A model generated the notes under the pieces. The model was not told the origin of the DNA and made no database searches. It saw only the letters and a program-made list of their open reading frames with translations. Of a DNA stretch of 40,665 nt, positions 6,884 through 40,665 are shown piece after piece; the first letter of the stretch is position 1, and every line of letters starts with the position of its first letter. This DNA comes from Bacillota bacterium. Lineage in GTDB: Bacteria; Bacillota; Clostridia; Saccharofermentanales; Fastidiosipilaceae. A program made the translations under genes and the position numbers. The stretch is taken from NCBI GenBank assembly GCA_030055235.1, contig JASGUW010000021.1:1-40665 (forward strand), given 5' to 3'.

Positions 6884-7133
6884 TCTGGCCAATTTTTTCG
6901 TTCCTGCCCGGATTTCGGGGCACAAACGGCCTTTTTTGGCCAGCTGTGGCCAATTTTTTCGTTCCTGCCCGGATTTCGGGGCACCAGCGCAATTTTTGTC
7001 CATCCTTGGCCAGAAATCGGGGTTTGTGCCCCGGTTCAGGGCACAAACGGCCTTTTTTGGCCACCCGTGGTCAATTTTTTCGTTCCTGCCCCGGTTTTGG
7101 GGCACCAGCGCAATTTTTGTCCACCCCTGAGCA
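6884..7133 (+). repeat. 61-bp two-hairpin array, family A
   Basis: Four tandem units of 61 bp. Each has a main hairpin (TGCCC..GGGCA core with loops of about 6-8), a T5-T6 tract, then a spacer hairpin of TTGGCCA or TTGTCCA with TGGCCAA or TGGTCAA and a 4-base loop. Two different left arms (CGTTCCTGCCC, GTTTGTGCCC) and two right arms (GGGCACCAGCG, GGGCACAAACG) are combined along the array. The array sits between divergent genes, about 240 bases before the FAD oxidoreductase gene. Confidence 0.9.
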
Positions 7134-8984: not shown

Positions 8985-9105
8985 TCGAGTCGGTGCCCTG
9001 GCTGGAGCCAGTGCTCTGGTTCGAGTCGGTGTCCTGGCTGGAGTCGGTGCCCTGGCTGGAGCCGGTGTTCTGGCTGGAGTTGGTGCCCTGGCTGGAGCCG
9101 GTGAA
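8985..9105. repeat. 18-bp minisatellite downstream of FAD oxidoreductase
   Basis: About six to seven tandem copies of a GGTGCCCTGGCTGGAGCC-like unit with point changes. It lies just after the stop codon and can be read in several frames, but none has a start with a ribosome site. Probably slippage-prone non-coding DNA. Confidence 0.85.
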
Positions 9106-9117
9106 TGTCGGACCGCG

Positions 9118-9190
9118 GGTGAGCATGCCAGGAGGGTGGAGGGCGGTTGGCATGGGCCCTGCGCGCCGTTGCTGCAAGGCGCGCAGGGCC
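9118..9190 (+). repeat. Start module of 71-bp array B1, with strong hairpin
   Basis: 9118-9146 (GAGCATGCCAGGAGGGTGG core) resembles the reverse complement of 22071-22094 beside array B2. Then GGCCCTGCGCGCC and GGCGCGCAGGGCC (9155-9190) form a perfect 13-bp stem with a 10-base loop, leading into the first repeat unit. Confidence 0.65.
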
Positions 9191-9735
9191 AAAACAGCGC
9201 GAAATCCAAAAAACGATTTGGATTACAGGCTACTTTGGCCACAGAAGGCCTGATTCTGGTCAAAATAGCGTGTAATCCAAAAAATGATTTGGATACGAGG
9301 CTACTTTGACCACAAAGGGTCTGTTTCTGGTCAAAACAGCGTGTAATCCAAAAAACGATTTGGATAGCAGGCTACTTTGACCACAAAGGACCTGTTTCTG
9401 GTCAAAATAGCGTGTAATCCAAAAAACGATTTGGAAACGAGGCTACTTTGACCACGAAGGGCTTGATTCTGGTCAAAACAACGTGTAATGGCAAATTCGA
9501 TTGCCATTACAGCCTAAGTTGACCACAAAGGGCCTGTTTCTGGTCAAAACAGCGTGAAATGGCAAATTCAATTGCCATTACAGCCTAAGTTGACCACAGG
9601 AGGCCTGTTTCTGGTCAAAACAGCGTGAAATGGCAAATTCGATTGCCATTACAGCCTAAGCTGACCACGGAGGGCCTGTTTCTGGTCAAAACAGCGTGTA
9701 ATCCAAAAAACGATTTGGATATCAGGCTACTTTGA
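9191..9735 (-). repeat. 71-bp two-hairpin array, family B (B1)
   Basis: About eight tandem units with an exact 71-bp spacing (anchor GGCTAC or GCCTAA at 9299, 9370, 9441, 9512, 9583, 9654, 9725). Each unit holds hairpin 1 (TTGACCA..TGGTCAA, loop about 15) and hairpin 2. Hairpin 2 uses ATCCAAA / TTTGGAT in five units and ATGGCAA / TTGCCAT in three (9485-9652), so both arms change together. The array lies between the convergent FAD oxidoreductase and LysM genes. The minus call follows array B2, where the T6-containing form reads on plus. Confidence 0.93.
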
Positions 9736-9795
9736 CCACGGAGAGTCGCGCACGCCGCTATGCAGCGTGCAGGCCGCTGCACAGCGCGCAGGGGC
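9736..9795 (+). repeat. End module of array B1
   Basis: After the last hairpin-1 start, the sequence GACCACGGAGAGTCGCGCACGCCGCT leads into a GC-rich segment ending GCGCGCAGGG. Array B2 has the matching end (reverse complement of 21210-21250), so both arrays stop with the same module. Confidence 0.7.
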
Positions 9796-10196
9796 TTTCG
9801 GGATCGCCTTAATCATGCTGATTCAGTGCAACAGAATCTGGATTGCTTTGTTATCTCCTGGAAAATGCCTGGCAGTGCCAGTTATCTTCGTCGTTCACCA
9901 TCCTATCGCATACCATTCACATTCCGGCAGTTTGTGAGGACGATCGCTACGCAAGTAGCGGGAGATGAAATCTTCAAAACCCTCAAGAGCAAGCTGCCGC
10001 TGGAACAGCGGTATAACAGCGGTATATCAGTAATTTTCGAAAGACTCGGAAAAAGCTTTTACCAAGTCCCGACAGATATGACGTGCACCCAGGCAGCATA
10101 AAGCAACGGGCCGCGAGCACTGGCACCAATGTAGACCTTCGGTGTCGAATATTCGCTGTTAGGCAGAAGCGTACCAGCTCTTCTCAAGTGCCCAGC
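9796..10196. other. Intergenic stretch between array B1 and LysM gene
   Basis: Contains an open frame at 9760-10101 (113 codons) with no ribosome site and no recognisable domain; it starts inside the array end module, so I do not call it a gene. Nothing else was recognised. Confidence 0.4.
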
Positions 10197-10208: not shown

Positions 10209-12209
10209 CTAGCGGATGATCACGGTGACCCAGCGGTCATAGGCATAGTAGACCGTACCGTTGCCATGAGCGGCGGCGTTCTGGACGTTGGTCTGTACCA
10301 GACTGCCGGCGGAGGCGGCGCCGACCGGCACCAGAATGACCGAGGGCCTTGCCTGCTCATAGACTGGCGTCAGCCGATCGTTCCCGTGGTGTGCCTGCTG
10401 CACGATGTCGGCCTTGAGGCGACTGCCAAAGGTGCCGGCTATCCAGGACGCGGCATTGTCCGTTTGATCGGAGAGGATCAGCATGGTCATTCCCGTCGAA
10501 CCGAAGGTCAGCTTGGCCACCAGACTTTCATCATTCAGGCGCCAGAAACGATTGGTGTTGATGTGCAGGATCTCTATGACGAGCCCGTCGATTGTGTAGG
10601 TCTGGCCTGAGCTGATCTCAGTCCACTTGCCCTGCCGTTTGGCGATATCGACCGCGCCGAACTGAAAAGCAGATTCGTCAGGACCCTCTTCCGGTGTTTT
10701 GCTGTCGTGAGTAGACTTGCTGACCGTGGCACCGTACCAGCGTCCGACTTCGATGCCGTTGGGATTGCGGATGATGGCCGCCGGCACGCGGACATGGTCG
10801 TTATGCATGTGCGACATGAACCAGGCGTCGACGCGATTGTTTGCGTTCTGAGCCAGCCAGCCGCGGACATTCTCTTCTTCGCCCGTACTGTAGCCGGAGA
10901 TCGTAGACTGCTTGTCCGATGTTAGTGTCTGCATACCGCCATCTATGACAATGGTGCGTCCGTTGGGGGTCTGGATTATATAGCCCATGCCGATCTGATT
11001 GCCTTCTGTGTAGCCGGTGATGGGGATCTGCGTGACCTTGTATGCTCCGGCCTCGTGGCTGACCGAAGGGATGGGCAGATATGCCGTATTGTTGCCGGGT
11101 GCCTGTGCCAGCACGGAAATCCGACCCCGCTCCGCGGGGTTGGCTCCGGGTTCCGGGGTCGGAGAGCCGGGTTCAGGAGAGTTGGCGATTGCAGGACTGC
11201 CATTCCCGCCCCCGGGGATGCTGAGCACCTGACCGACGCGGAGCCAGTAGGGCGCAGCGATGTTGTTTGCCCGCGCAATGCTCAGGTAGCTGACGCCGTA
11301 TATCTGGCTGATATCCCAGAGCGTGTCGCCGGACTTGACCGTATGGCTGCCGGACGGGGCAGGTTTGGCAGGTGCCGGCGCAGGCGCAGGCGCCGGAGTC
11401 GGGGCGGGAGTGGGAGCCGGCGTGGGTGTAGGAGCCGCAGAACTGCCTGTCCCCGGGATGGTGAGCCGCTGCCCGATCTGCAGCCAGTAGGGTGCCAAAA
11501 TGCCGTTGGCCCTGGCAATGCTCAGGTGGTTGACGCCAAAGGCCTGCCCGATTTTCCAGAGCGTGTCGCCTGACTTCACCACATAGGTGCTGCCAGGTGC
11601 CGCAGGTGTTGAAGGTGTTGTAGGTGAGGGAGGTGTCGGTGCCGGAGCAGGACTGGGTGCCGGTGTCGGAGCAGGCACCGCCGGCGTTGTCGGAGCAGCC
11701 GCATTGCCGCTGCCCGGGATGCTGAGCACCTGGCCGACACGGAGCCAGTAGGGCGCCGTGATGCCGTTGGCTCTGGCAATGCTCAGGTAGTTGACGCCGA
11801 AGGCCTGCCCGATCATCCAGAGTGTATCGCCTGACTTGACCACATAAGTGCTGCCAGCTGCCGCGGGTGTCGGCTGTGCCGCGGGTGTCGGCTGTGCCGC
11901 AGGTGTCGGCTGTGTCGCAGGCAGCGCCGATGTAGGCACCGAAGTCGGCGCCGGTACCGGCGCCTGGGGCTCGCCGCCCGGATAAACCTGAACCCCGTTC
12001 GCATCGAAAACGCGGTAGCCGTTGTGACTGCGGGCTGCGGCGATGGCATTTGACAGAACACGATACGCCCCGATCTGTGATTGAGCATTTTCCCAGCTGC
12101 TGCGGACGCGGTAATAGTCACCCTGGGCTCCGACCGGGAGGCCGGCGCTCAAGCAGAATGCGAAAAGGACGATAAGAGTCATGAAAAGCAGGAAAGGTCT
12201 TCGTTTCAT
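10209..12209 (-). CDS. Secreted triple-LysM protein with metallo-beta-lactamase domain
   Basis: A 666-residue exported protein. A signal peptide (1-29, cut near GAQG) is followed by a SPOR-like segment (YRVRSSWENAQSQIGAY..) and three LysM domains (about 121-165, 208-252, 288-332, each with VKSGDTLW), which bind peptidoglycan. Pro/Ala/Thr linkers separate them; one is a run of AQPTP pentapeptides. Residues 400-660 are a metallo-beta-lactamase fold of the ComEC/Rec2 C-terminal type, with SHMHNDH (466-472) as the metal motif, VIDGG, LILSDQ and QQAHHG. So a metal-dependent hydrolase appears tethered to the wall; the substrate is unknown. AGGAG precedes the ATG. Confidence 0.9.
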   Translation of the reverse strand: MKRRPFLLFMTLIVLFAFCLSAGLPVGAQGDYYRVRSSWENAQSQIGAYRVLSNAIAAARSHNGYRVFDANGVQVYPGGEPQAPVPAPTSVPTSALPATQPTPAAQPTPAAQPTPAAAGSTYVVKSGDTLWMIGQAFGVNYLSIARANGITAPYWLRVGQVLSIPGSGNAAAPTTPAVPAPTPAPSPAPAPTPPSPTTPSTPAAPGSTYVVKSGDTLWKIGQAFGVNHLSIARANGILAPYWLQIGQRLTIPGTGSSAAPTPTPAPTPAPTPAPAPAPAPAKPAPSGSHTVKSGDTLWDISQIYGVSYLSIARANNIAAPYWLRVGQVLSIPGGGNGSPAIANSPEPGSPTPEPGANPAERGRISVLAQAPGNNTAYLPIPSVSHEAGAYKVTQIPITGYTEGNQIGMGYIIQTPNGRTIVIDGGMQTLTSDKQSTISGYSTGEEENVRGWLAQNANNRVDAWFMSHMHNDHVRVPAAIIRNPNGIEVGRWYGATVSKSTHDSKTPEEGPDESAFQFGAVDIAKRQGKWTEISSGQTYTIDGLVIEILHINTNRFWRLNDESLVAKLTFGSTGMTMLILSDQTDNAASWIAGTFGSRLKADIVQQAHHGNDRLTPVYEQARPSVILVPVGAASAGSLVQTNVQNAAAHGNGTVYYAYDRWVTVIIR

Positions 12210-15630: not shown

Positions 15631-15639
15631 GGATTACAA

Positions 15640-15876
15640 AGATGACGATATTGCCCTGTAGATCGGGCAATATCGGACACTTTGGCCAAGGGGTGGACAA
15701 AAAACGCGCTGGTGCACCGGAATCGGGGCAGGAACGAAAAAATTGACCAGGGCTGGCCAAAAAAGGCCGTTTGTGCCCGCAAATCTGGGCACAAACCCCG
15801 ATTTCTGGCCAGGGGTGGACAAAAAATGCGCTGGTGCCCCAAAACCGGGGCAGGAACGAAAAACTTGTCCACATCT
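15640..15876 (-). repeat. 61-bp two-hairpin array, families A and C
   Basis: One family-C unit (ATTGCCC..GGGCAAT, 15651-15674) followed by three family-A units with spacer hairpins at 15682, 15743 and 15804 (61-62 bp apart). Read on minus, left and right arms alternate: CGTTCCTGCCC with GGGCACCAGCG, GTTTGTGCCC with GGGCACAAAC, then the first pair again. The array sits between the convergent AraC-type and MntP genes. Confidence 0.9.
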
Positions 15877-15880
15877 ATTT

Positions 15881-16494
15881 GCTCCAACTGGCGGTGCGGC
15901 ACCGCCGCTTTCTTTCTTCATTCTTCATCACAAAGCGGCGGCAAACGAAACGAATCGATAGGAAACAGTTGTACGGGCGACACTTGCAGCGGCATCCCTA
16001 ACGGGGAGGAACGGATTAGCTGGCCACAGCTGGAAAACAACGCATTTGTGTCTGGCTACTTGAGTTAGATCTCCAATGCTCACATTGTGATTCACTCCAA
16101 GGAAGGCCAGTGTTCCAAAGAAGGCCAAAGACCAAGAAAAATGGAAAGATACTTATGTGTGCTCAAGCAGCTGGTAAGGGTTCATTGAAGAAGTCTGTGA
16201 AACACAATGGAGCGGAGAGGGATGTAATTTGTAGTTCCCTGTGATGCAGCGCGTGAGACAAGTACATTCTGTAGACATTGCCAGGCGAAGCCAGCCTTCA
16301 GTGTCGATATGCTTTCAGTGTCGATAAGCCATCAGCGTCAGTCTGAACCGCTATACACCACATGCAGAACTGTCAAAGCACCTGATTCCCAAACACCCGA
16401 TTCCCAAGCGCTTGATTCCAAAGCACCCGATTCCAGAGCGCCTGGGCCGCTTCCTGTTCCATGACCCGGGGCAGTCCCGCTGGAGAAAGTCCAG
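15881..16494. other. Intergenic stretch before the MntP gene end
   Basis: No gene was recognised. About four copies of an 18-19-bp unit (AAGCACCCGATTCC) lie at 16375-16445. GGAAGGCC / AAGAAGGCC repeats lie at 16100-16128. On minus, after the MntP stop, comes a short hairpin CTGGA..TCCAG and then GCGGGACTG, a rearranged form of the stop-adjacent motif. Confidence 0.5.
16375..16445. repeat. 18-19-bp minisatellite
   Basis: About four degenerate tandem copies of a unit like AAGCACCCGATTCC(C/A), non-coding, between convergent genes. Confidence 0.7.
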
Positions 16495-21156: not shown

Positions 21157-21250
21157 TGGTCAAAAGAGGTTGAAATGGTAATCGTATTTGTTATTACACG
21201 CTGTTTTGACCCTGCGCGCCGTGCAGCGGCGTGCGCGACCCTTCCGTGGT
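21157..21250 (+). repeat. End module of array B2
   Basis: Holds a variant unit with GTAAT..ATTAC arms (21178-21197) and a GC-rich insert inside hairpin 1 (CTGCGCGCCG..CGGCGTGCGCG), matching on the reverse strand the end module of array B1. Confidence 0.65.
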
Positions 21251-22012
21251 CAAAGTAGCCTGAAATCCAAATCGTTTTTTGGATTGGACGCTGTTTTGAC
21301 CAGAATCAAGGCTTCCGTAGTCAAAGTAGCCTGGTATCCAAATGCTTTTTTGGATTGGACGCTATTTTGACCAGAAACAGGCCTTCCGTGGTCAAAGTAG
21401 CCTGATATCCAAATGGTTTTTTGGATTGGACGCTGTTTTGACCAGAAACAGGCCCTCGGTGGTCAAAGTAGCCTGAAATCCAAATGGTTTTTTGGATTGG
21501 ACGCTATTTTGACCAGAAACAGGCCTTCTGTAGTCAAAGTAGCCTGGTATCCAAATGGTTTTTTGGATTGGACGCTATTTTGACCAGAAACAGGCCCTTT
21601 GTGGTCAAAGTAGCCTGCTATCCACATGGTTTTTTGGATTGGACTCTGTTTTGACCAGAATCAGGCCGTCTGTGGTCAAAGTAGCCTGATATCCAAATGG
21701 TTTTTTGGATTGGACGTTGTTTTGACCAGAATCAGGCCGTCTGTGGTCAAGATGAAGAGAAATACAAAATCCTTTTTGTAAAACTCCCGATCTTGACCAG
21801 GAACCGGTCCTTCGTGGTCAAAATGAGGAGAAATACAAAATCCTTTTTGTAAAACTCTCGATCTTGACCAGAAACAGGCCTTCCGTGGTCAAGATGAAGA
21901 GAAATACAAAATCTTTTTTGTAAAACTCTCGATCTTGACCAGAAACAGGCCGTCTGTGGTCAAGATGAAGAGAAATACAAAATCTTTTTTGTAAAACTCT
22001 CGATCTTGACCA
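21251..22012 (+). repeat. 71-bp two-hairpin array, family B (B2)
   Basis: About eleven units at an exact 71-bp step (GGATT anchors at 21281, 21352, 21423, 21494, 21565, 21636, 21707). The first eight use hairpin 2 ATCCAAA / TTTGGAT and hairpin 1 with a stem of up to 13 bp (GCTATTTTGACCA). The last units (from 21735) keep the 71-bp length but carry TACAAAA / TTTTGTA and an ATCTTGACCA / TGGTCAAGAT stem. It is in the opposite orientation to B1, between the divergent regulator and folT. Confidence 0.93.
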
Positions 22013-22202
22013 TCCGGAATCTATCTGCTGATTTCCTATCCTTCTATTCTTCCTTCCACCATCCTCCTGCCCGCCACTCTCATGGCTTGCTCGCCAGCAC
22101 TCCGCCATTCCCGTGCCCCGCCATTCCTGGCGCGCGCCCAAGCTTGGGGCCTGTTCCCCTCCTCTGGCAGAAACATGCTAAGATGGTGCGGAAATTCTAT
22201 TC
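22013..22202. other. Flank of array B2 before the THF riboswitch
   Basis: 22071-22094 read on minus (GAGCAAGCCATGAGAGTGG) resembles the start module of B1 at 9121. No clear promoter for the riboswitch was found, although transcription must start here or inside the array. Confidence 0.5.
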
Positions 22203-22303
22203 GACAGAGTAGACGAGTCGCGTCAAGTGCCGGGACATGGGAAGTCGGTCCCGGACGAAGGCCTGCATACACAAGGCCGCGGTGGCTCGTCGCGTCCGCT
22301 GTC
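22203..22303 (+). ncRNA. Tetrahydrofolate (THF) riboswitch
   Basis: Matches the class-I THF aptamer: a closing stem GACAG / CTGTC, the conserved AGAGTAGACGA..CGCGTCAAGTG strand, a GGGA-type hairpin arm, GGACGAAGGCC, and the late GGCCGCGGTGG..CGTCCGC strand that returns to the start. It binds reduced folates and lowers expression of folate transport or synthesis genes when folate is plentiful. It stands 87 bases before the ECF folate transporter gene, the typical target. Confidence 0.92.
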
Positions 22304-22341
22304 AACGCTGCCGGTTGCTGTGCCTCGCGCTCTTGCGCCCT

Positions 22342-22381
22342 GAGGCTCGGCCTCCCGCTCGCGTTTACTGCGGGAAGGAGG
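22342..22381 (+). promoter_or_regulatory. Riboswitch expression platform masking the ribosome site
   Basis: CCTCCCGC (22351-22358) can pair with GCGGG-A-AGG (22370-22378), which covers the AGGAGG of folT. The overlapping hairpin GAGGC-tcg-GCCTC (22342-22354) takes away the left arm and would free the ribosome site. This suggests translational rather than termination control. Confidence 0.7.
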
Positions 22382-22389
22382 TAGCAACC

Positions 22390-23001
22390 ATGTCAGTCGT
22401 ATCCACCAGGCCGCCGCGTCCGCGGCCCGTCTACCAGCTCGCCCTCGCCGCTCTCTTTGTGGCGCTCAGCGTCATTCTGACGCGCCTCCTGAGCGTGATC
22501 GTCATCGGCGGCGCCTTTCGCCCGGAACTCGGCCATGTGCCCATCCAGCTCGCCGGTCTGCTGCTCGGCCCCGGCTACGGCGCGCTGACAGGTCTGGCCG
22601 CAGATCTCATTGGCGTGATCCTAATGCCACAGGGTACCTTCCACCCAGGCTTTACCCTGTCCAGTGTGCTCGTCGGACTGCTGCCGGGCCTCGCCGTGAC
22701 AGCCCTCGGCGTCGTGTACACCCGATCGGGTGGGAAGAAAGAGCCGGAAGTCAGGCAGCGGATGCCTGTCCTGCTGGCCGCCACCGTGCTCAGTGACTGG
22801 GCCATCGCGCAGTTTCTCTCCACGTTCTGGCTCAGCGGTCTGCTCGGCTCTCCGTGGACGACGCTCTTTGCCCTGCGCCTCGTTCCGGTAGCCGTGCGCA
22901 GTCTGCTGAACGGCGCCGTACTGGCGCTGCTGTTGCGCATTTCTGTGCAGCTGTCACTGCCCGGCCTTCACCTTAACCACAAAAACCGAAAAATCAGCTG
23001 A
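22390..23001 (+). CDS. folT: Folate ECF transporter S component (FolT-like)
   Basis: A 203-residue membrane protein with about six hydrophobic segments, the substrate-binding S subunit of an energy-coupling factor transporter. The segments LALAALFVALSVILTRLLS, HVPIQLAGLLLGPGYGALTGLAADLIG and the FHPGFTLSSVLVGLLPGL loop fit the folate-type family. It needs shared EcfA/EcfT subunits, not encoded here. GGAAGGAGG lies 8 bases before the ATG and falls inside the riboswitch-controlled hairpin. The upstream THF aptamer supports folate as substrate. The longer frame from 22237 overlaps the aptamer and is rejected. Confidence 0.92.
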   Translation: MSVVSTRPPRPRPVYQLALAALFVALSVILTRLLSVIVIGGAFRPELGHVPIQLAGLLLGPGYGALTGLAADLIGVILMPQGTFHPGFTLSSVLVGLLPGLAVTALGVVYTRSGGKKEPEVRQRMPVLLAATVLSDWAIAQFLSTFWLSGLLGSPWTTLFALRLVPVAVRSLLNGAVLALLLRISVQLSLPGLHLNHKNRKIS

Positions 23002-28251: not shown

Positions 28252-28556
28252 GGGAGCGGGGGTCGGCTGTCAGGGGCGGCGGAACGTCCAGCTGGATCTT
28301 GTCGGTGGAGCGCCCAACAGGGTGTTGTCGTTGGTGCATTCGAAAAATCGAGGTGCATTTGAAAAATCGGGGTGCATTCAGGGTGCAGCCACGGAACGCG
28401 CATGGCACTGCTCCCGTTTCGGGGTGCCAGTGTCGTTTTGTCTGCCTCTGACCAGATTTTTCGCCATTGCCTGGCTCACGGGGCAATTGCGCTGTTTTTG
28501 TCATTGCTGTTGAGAGGAGTATCTGAGAGAACCCAGTACCTCTGACTTTCTTGATT

Positions 28557-28650
28557 TGGCAACTTTTGGAGTTGTGTCAGCTTTTCCTGACACAACTCGC
28601 TTTTTTGTCCAATTTGAGTTTGAAATGGTCAACTTTTTGAGTTGTGTCAC
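28557..28650 (+). repeat. 70-bp hairpin array, family D
   Basis: GAGTTGTGTCAG-cttttc-CTGACACAACTC (28569-28598), a perfect 12-bp stem, is followed by GCTTTTTTG and could terminate the beta-galactosidase transcript. A spacer pair TTGTCCA / TGGTCAA (28605-28632) follows, then a lone left arm GAGTTGTGTCA at 28639, exactly 70 bases on, cut off at the F block. Matches the array at 40192-40346. Confidence 0.9.
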
Positions 28651-28661
28651 TTTTGTGCCCC

Positions 28662-28715
28662 ATGCCTCTCGCTTCGCTCAAGGCACTAAACGGCATGAAT
28701 CGTTGGCGACGAGCG
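28662..28715 (+). repeat. F boundary block, copy 3
   Basis: CTTCGCTCAAGGCACTAAACG and CATGAATCGTTGGCG, in two blocks, are the best-kept cores across the four copies. TGCC / GGCA at its start could form a short stem that is TACC / GGTA in the 40397 copy. It joins family D on the left with family C on the right. Confidence 0.85.
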
Positions 28716-28744
28716 CATAGCGGTATCAAACCCGTTTCACTACC

Positions 28745-28912
28745 TGTGTAAAACTTCGCTATTGCCCGATCCGCGGGGCAATCTCGGCTTTTTTGTTCAC
28801 TCCCTGGTCAAATTCTTCGCTATTGCCCGGCCCGCAGGGCAATCTCGGCTTTTTTGCACACTTCCTGTACAAATTCTTCGCTATTGCCCGATCCTCGGAG
28901 TATCCGCTGGGA
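28745..28912 (+). repeat. 61-bp hairpin array, family C
   Basis: About two and a half units: ATTGCCC..GGGCAAT hairpins at about 28760, 28821 and 28882 (61 bp apart), each followed by CTCGGCTTTTTTG and a spacer TTGTTCA..TGGTCAA. Same orientation as 40465-40665 read on minus. Confidence 0.9.
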
Positions 28913-40191: not shown

Positions 40192-40346
40192 GGAGTTGTG
40201 TAAGAGGAAAGATCGACACAACTCCAAAAGTTGGCAAATCCGCCCTCAGTTTTGACAAAAAATCGAGTTGTGTCAGGAAAAGGTGACACAACTCGAAAAG
40301 TTGGCAAATCCGTCCTCGGTTTTGACAAAAGGTCGAGTTGTGTCAG
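40192..40346 (-). repeat. 70-bp hairpin array, family D
   Basis: Two hairpins GAGTTGTGTCA..TGACACAACTC style (one perfect pair at 40265-40294) and an orphan arm (40335-40346), at 70-bp steps (GACACA at 40215 and 40285; GAGTTG at 40265 and 40335). Spacer pairs are TTGGCAAA with TTTTGACAA. Read on minus it matches 28557-28650, again next to an F block. Confidence 0.9.
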
Positions 40347-40396
40347 CGAAAGAAACTGAATCAAAAACGGGTTGCAAATAGATTAGACGTCGCTAA

Positions 40397-40450
40397 CATT
40401 CAGCGCCGACGATTCATGCCGTTTTGTACCCTGAGCGAAGTGAGAGGTAT
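40397..40450 (-). repeat. F boundary block, copy 4
   Basis: On minus it shares ACTTCGCTCAGGGTACAAAACG and CGGCATGAATCGTCGGCG (in parts) with copy 3. Families C and D again meet here, in the order C-F-D when read on minus, the reverse of the order D-F-C at 28662. Confidence 0.85.
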
Positions 40451-40464
40451 GGGCTATAAAAGTC

Positions 40465-40665
40465 GGTATTGCCCCTGGAATCGGGCAATATCGAAGTTTT
40501 TGACCAGGGAGTGGACAAAAATCACGGTATTGCCCCTGGAATTGGGCAATATCGAAGTTTTTGACCAGAGAGTGGACAAAAATCACGGTATTGCCCCTGG
40601 AATCGGGCAATATCGAAGTTTTTGACCAGGGAGTGGACAAAAATCACGGTATTGCCCCTGGAATC
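40465..40665 (-). repeat. 61-bp hairpin array, family C, running off the window
   Basis: At least three identical-length units (ATTGCCC..GGGCAAT, spacing 61) with spacer TTGACCA-gggag-TGGACAA, whose stem holds a conserved A-A mismatch. Units are almost identical, suggesting recent expansion. The array continues past the window end. Confidence 0.93.

Follow-up and report, generated by a model that had tools for sequence, protein, structure and literature searches.

A tandem-hairpin array as the probable core of a transposable element

The 71-bp tandem array B1, at 9186-9739 on the minus strand of the 40,665-nucleotide stretch analysed here (the window), probably forms the tandem-hairpin core within a non-autonomous, MITE-like transposon with terminal inverted repeats (TIRs), a reading to which we give a probability of roughly 0.78. 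It does not represent a structured RNA or a satellite standing on its own. The array consists of eight units, each made of a 56-bp hairpin (TGGNCAA ... TTGNCCA) followed by a 15-bp spacer of the GAAACAGGCCCTTCG type. In B1 the unit ends are TGGTCAA and TTGACCA, and in the imperfect hairpin that they bound a base stem, TGGTCAAA/TTTGACCA, surrounds an inner stem, so that what a sequence-only reading had described as two hairpins per unit is mainly one nested hairpin. That reading's eight units, their 71-bp length and their place are borne out, but the units are not near-exact copies: in a matrix of 56-bp pieces shifted by one base from the unit register, which hardly alters the identities, the units are 68-98% identical overall, 93-98% within a type (except for the first unit, which has diverged to 80-86%) and 68-75% between types. 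The division into five units and three was correct; units 1-4 and 8 in plus-strand numbering form subfamily A1, with the inner stem ATCCAAA/TTTGGAT, whereas the adjacent units 5-7 form subfamily A2, with ATGGCAA/TTGCCAT. The folding check that had been suggested shows the array to be far more stable than its shuffles on both the plus strand (z -12.5) and the minus strand (z -15.4).

Next to 71-bp arrays, flanks of about 330 bp on the left and about 100 bp on the right are conserved, both in this genome and in a second species of the same genus (G001), and the elements that they define, which we call A elements, are high in copy number and intergenic. Each consists of a left module, a number of units that varies from 1 to 14, and a right module, with the array orientation constant within its element, and is closed by TIRs of about 24 bp (GGGTGCACGTCA...TGTCGGGA) whose outer ends are inverted relative to each other (GGGTGCACGTCAnnnnTGTCGGGA / TCCCGACAnnnnTGACGTGCACCC). 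The TIR has 68 matches in the genome at up to 3 mismatches and none for the control, and facing TIR pairs flank hairpin units. What is left of the B1 element, about 1.0 kb on the minus strand (about 9090-10090), is one of dozens of copies across the genome, where a DNA search likewise found dozens of arrays resembling B1. Its left TIR, GGGTGCACGTCATATCTGTCGGGA, at 10067-10090 (minus strand), has 0 mismatches to the consensus. The left module (9740-10066, minus strand) includes a G/C-rich hairpin next to the array (about 9740-9794, TGCGCGC..GTGCGCG), and the right module (9103-9185, minus strand) has a G/C-rich hairpin, TGCGCGCC..GGCGCGCA, followed by a conserved tail, GCCAACCG..TGGCATGCTCACCCGC..CCGACATTC. 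The outer right TIR would be expected at 9090-9102 (minus strand) and is degenerate there. An 18-bp minisatellite, GAGCCGGTGCCCTGGCTG, at 8987-9103, adjoins this degraded right end and overlaps it, and a gene for a LysM-repeat protein (10209-12209) lies beside B1.

Evidence that A elements have moved comes from their target sites. Among 17 copies with facing ends, the 9-bp sequences outside the two ends have an identity of 0.529, compared with 0.249 in mispaired controls (z = 8.0), with little or no duplication at about 7 of the 17 paired ends; the signal is absent at 5-8 and 10-12 bp in the same copies. Two A-element copies have perfect 9/9 duplications. For one of these (L033) G001 yielded a single flank, and hence no empty site can be read there. 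At the 500-bp copy at L101, G001 has the two flanks joined without the element, that is, an empty site, with the exact junction blurred because G001 also misses about 16 bp of local repeat. B1's own target duplication is not visible; its left TIR is intact and its right TIR is degraded. The orthologous site in G001 holds 73 bp in place of B1 and the LysM gene region, and is not a clean empty site because G001 also lacks that neighbouring gene.

We infer that a transposase supplied in trans would have moved the A element. No transposase was recognised at the TIR-bearing loci that we read, in an assembly that is broken at repeats, and no autonomous partner or transposase with GGGTGCACGTCA ends was found in it. 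An ISLre2-type search for the source of the 9-bp element gave no match, as did its own control. Many contigs of this genome, among them C39, C228, C26, C234 and C160, end within arrays, so the arrays are more numerous and longer than the assembly shows, and it may have left an autonomous copy out. A 113-aa open reading frame (9760-10101, plus strand) overlaps the B1 left module; it has no Pfam or NCBIfam match, the open reading frame of the L091 element has no NCBIfam match, and copies of the left module are full of indels, and on these grounds a conserved gene carried by the element was rejected. A phage or plasmid origin was likewise rejected: no viral contig matched the tandem pattern, and the element had no plasmid or phage match.

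A 56-bp frame shared by unrelated elements

The frame TGGNCAA-N42-TTGNCCA has 656 exact matches in the 3.42-Mb genome and 141 in G001, and its reversed control has none in either. The gap length is fixed: in the loci of this genome that were read, 228 sites have the 42-bp gap, and each other gap length between 30 and 69 bp accounts for 0-4. Several interiors occupy the frame, namely A (71-bp period), B and C (61 bp), D (70 bp) and E (TACAAAA), and in families with different interiors the inner stems average 5-10 bp, compared with about 3.7 in shuffled interiors. Two sister genera hold few sites (11 and 4), with units (G004, G010) that keep the ends and the length and have weak inner hairpins; elsewhere in the order the counts fall to 1-2, which is the control level, and two G075 sites seem related on visual inspection. 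In G010 (L069 4026-4371, L072 and L073) the 56-bp frame recurs at a 145-bp period, in a repeat with an 89-bp spacer that has palindromes of its own.

The B-type arrays belong to a second element, with 27-bp inverted ends (GTAAGCGGTTCATAATCGGACGGGTGA), an array orientation that is again constant within the element, and 8-bp target duplications, which match at 8/8 positions at L091 and 7/8 at L110; the copy at L089 has no 8-bp duplication. A duplication of 8 bp is a hallmark of IS66. With its GTAA... ends and 8-bp duplications the B-type element has the features of an IS66-derived element, and the genome contains two intact IS66 transposase open reading frames; the ends of the genome's IS66 copies were not matched to the B-type ends. 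The A-type element to which B1 belongs differs from IS66 in having other ends and a 9-bp duplication. At L091 (222-2019) an A element encloses a B-type element (about 418-1756) that is bounded by a perfect 8-bp duplication, TTTCATCT, and therefore B moved after A at that site. The C and D arrays have other flanks again, which differ from those of A and B.

Since the A and B elements differ both in their ends and in the length of the duplication, at least two unrelated families of non-autonomous transposon carry one tandemly amplified hairpin frame that has constant ends, a fixed length and paired interiors that can be swapped. The 56-mer could be a separately selected module that folds as RNA or single-stranded DNA and is recognised by one lineage factor, and that unrelated transposon families, with 9-bp and with IS66-type 8-bp duplications, each acquired and amplified in tandem. 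We consider this unlikely; if it were true, a hairpin cassette hitchhikes on several transposons or is needed for their upkeep.

Covariation of the hairpin arms

The arms of the B1 hairpins had been said to change together such that pairing is kept, and a single recombined block from a non-hairpin source had been named among the observations that would refute the claim. Within B1, the variant units are adjacent and match a genome-wide subfamily (the A2 units' best matches elsewhere in the genome reach 0.95), so the covariation inside the array amounts to one block replacement, an exchange between two pre-existing subfamilies, and the eight units do not count as separate observations. The A1 and A2 consensus sequences differ at 13 of 56 positions, including the loop and the outer arm. 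Across subfamilies and both species the claim stands: for 30 divergent A and E units from this genome and G001, the covariation score is 0.278, compared with 0.161 +/- 0.014 for shuffled sets, none of 500 shuffles reaches it, and slid pairings score at most 0.098. In these units 86.5% of the cells pair, RNAalifold supports the base and inner stems, and eight pairs show changes on both sides, a number no higher than in the shuffles. Many of the covarying cells are the one inherited A1-to-A2 block, yet there are several separate compensatory changes genome-wide.

The covariation and the enriched inner stems together indicate that structure matters, or else a process that keeps the arms matched. 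Of the suggestion that selection on structure, and not a simple satellite, is at work, the second part is upheld, B1 being the core of a dispersed transposon-like element; selection on hairpin structure is plausible, and template switching could produce covariation without it. Co-changing arms in tandem hairpins thus need not imply selection for a local RNA. With hundreds of natural variants per genome, these arrays offer material for telling apart selection on folded DNA or RNA and mutation by template switching, something that has hitherto been hard.

Possible roles of the hairpin

A folded-strand role for the 56-nt module, as a transcript or as single-stranded DNA, is our tentative preference, at a little short of an even chance. 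The module would be kept as a folded single-strand motif, the invariant base TGGNCAA/TTGNCCA would be the part that is recognised, and the interior could change while pairing persists. Units would multiply and shrink through slippage or direct-repeat recombination, and this turnover may combine in one array two or three subfamilies that already existed. A strand bias hints at such folding. Scored on the strand where the spacer GAAACAGGCC lies 3' of the hairpin, the non-Watson-Crick symmetric pairs of the A units are more often G.T than A.C in this genome (465 vs 94) and in G001 (89 vs 15), an excess that fits the folding of one strand, be it RNA or single-stranded DNA. Recent changes between nearest neighbours lean the same way in this genome (88 vs 36, or 2.4:1, the events not being independent); those in G001 (8 vs 6) are not significant.

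Template switching between the arms of an imperfect palindrome, combined with block exchange between arrays, is a serious rival, for which we see a substantial chance, clearly below even. In this case the array would be a passive minisatellite within a MITE, under no structural selection. Published work documents that such switching both makes hairpins and repairs them (PMC8794818). Its standing as a rival comes from three observations: the passage from A1 to A2 alters three adjacent stem pairs and the loop together, no compensated pair occurs among the recent changes between nearest-neighbour units, and units of one subtype tend to lie side by side in an array (192 neighbours of like subtype and 32 unlike, where 51% like would be expected). 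It leaves unexplained, however, the invariant TGGNCAA ends and the strict 56-bp length across families, as well as the excess of G.T over A.C. It also fails to account for the mismatches that are maintained in two species: T.T and C.C mismatches persist in the B units of both, and it follows that conservation does not act on pairing alone.

Another alternative, which we think unlikely, is that the 56-bp unit is a double-stranded protein site in which inverted TGGNCAA half-sites 42 bp apart recruit a nucleoid-type or transposition protein and the hairpin is secondary. The ends are invariant in sequence beyond what mere pairing would call for, B units often have a mismatch at the N that separates TGG from CAA, and the sister-genus units retain ends and length around poor inner hairpins, all of which would suit such a site. 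On the other hand, in most families the inner stems far exceed chance, they co-vary, and a strand bias would be unexpected.

That the arrays are structured non-coding RNA genes, or RNA acting on neighbouring mRNAs as a terminator, stabiliser or riboregulator, is quite improbable in our judgement, and we propose no regulatory RNA at B1. The very stable folds (z -12 to -15), the strand-biased wobble pairs and the arm covariation speak for this explanation. Against it, the arrays occur in convergent, divergent and codirectional settings, and their orientation to genes is random, with 6 agreeing and 7 opposing in the codirectional settings (individual cases may be wrong because the gene calls are simple open reading frames), which makes a role tied to neighbouring mRNAs unlikely. 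Promoter-like and terminator-like matches are at about chance level, the presence of arrays is polymorphic between the two species, and Rfam gave no match to the B1 array above the gathering score, its sole match in the window being a THF riboswitch elsewhere.

Relation to known systems

The closest analogues among known systems are the pneumococcal BOX elements and the BrickBuilt MITE. BOX elements of S. pneumoniae and S. suis are dispersed composites in which fixed end modules surround a variable number of internal modules that are predicted to fold, and in S. suis two terminal pairs (boxA/C and boxE/F) surround one boxB (PMC3049150). The likeness is one of plan and lies in the modular A-Bn-C arrangement with variable n and in the presence of several terminal modules; Rfam reported no sequence match for the array. 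The elements described here differ from BOX in their long TIRs with 9-bp or 8-bp duplications and in a 56-bp frame that is invariant across families while the interiors are replaced, with hundreds of units per genome. BrickBuilt of Porphyromonas gingivalis is a MITE with a leader, an internal minisatellite of a 23-bp repeat without spacers, and a tail, and the repeat of the 464/PgRS MITE is 41 bp (PMC4596501). These are likewise intergenic and multicopy, with inverted-repeat ends and a plan common to several families, but their internal repeats have no shared hairpin frame. Tandem hairpin cores and IS66 do not come up under those names in a review of prokaryotic MITEs (PMC10969869). The new parts are the invariant frame common to unrelated families, its exact length and the strand bias.

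REPs are 20-40 bp long and have a RAYT partner (PMC3116915, PMC2817692, PMC3733652). REP, REPIN and BIME sequences resemble the present units in being intergenic imperfect palindromes in clusters, and differ in that here there are TIR elements and target duplications, and no intact Y1 transposase. Mobilisation of short, clustered intergenic palindromes by a Y1 (RAYT) transposase is highly improbable and was rejected, given the long TIRs, the 9-bp or 8-bp duplications (which Y1 enzymes are not known to make) and a single broken Y1 match in this genome with none in G001.

Other arrays in the window

A second 71-bp array, at 21157-22013 on the plus strand, contains A1 units and units of the TACAAAA subfamily, with spacers and a G/C hairpin like those of B1, and is absent from the orthologous site in G001, which measures 48 bp compared with about 1.26 kb here. 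At 6885-7124 (plus strand) lies a 61-bp array of B type, with the 56-bp frame and TGCCCC inner hairpins; the matching intergenic region of G001 holds an A-type 71-bp array. Another 61-bp B-type array, at 15633-15987 (minus strand), adjoins a B right module. In the region between about 14.3 and 16.5 kb synteny with G001 is interrupted, with a switch of contig around the B array at 15682-15871 that may mark a rearrangement breakpoint. Further units with the 56-bp frame, of D and B/C types, lie at 28556-28891 (plus strand), and D-type units (70 bp, GAGTTGTGTCA hairpin) occur with C-type units (61 bp) at 40193-40665 (plus strand). The THF riboswitch (22203-22303) is just upstream of a gene for an ECF transporter S component (22237-23001, plus strand), whose called start overlaps it.
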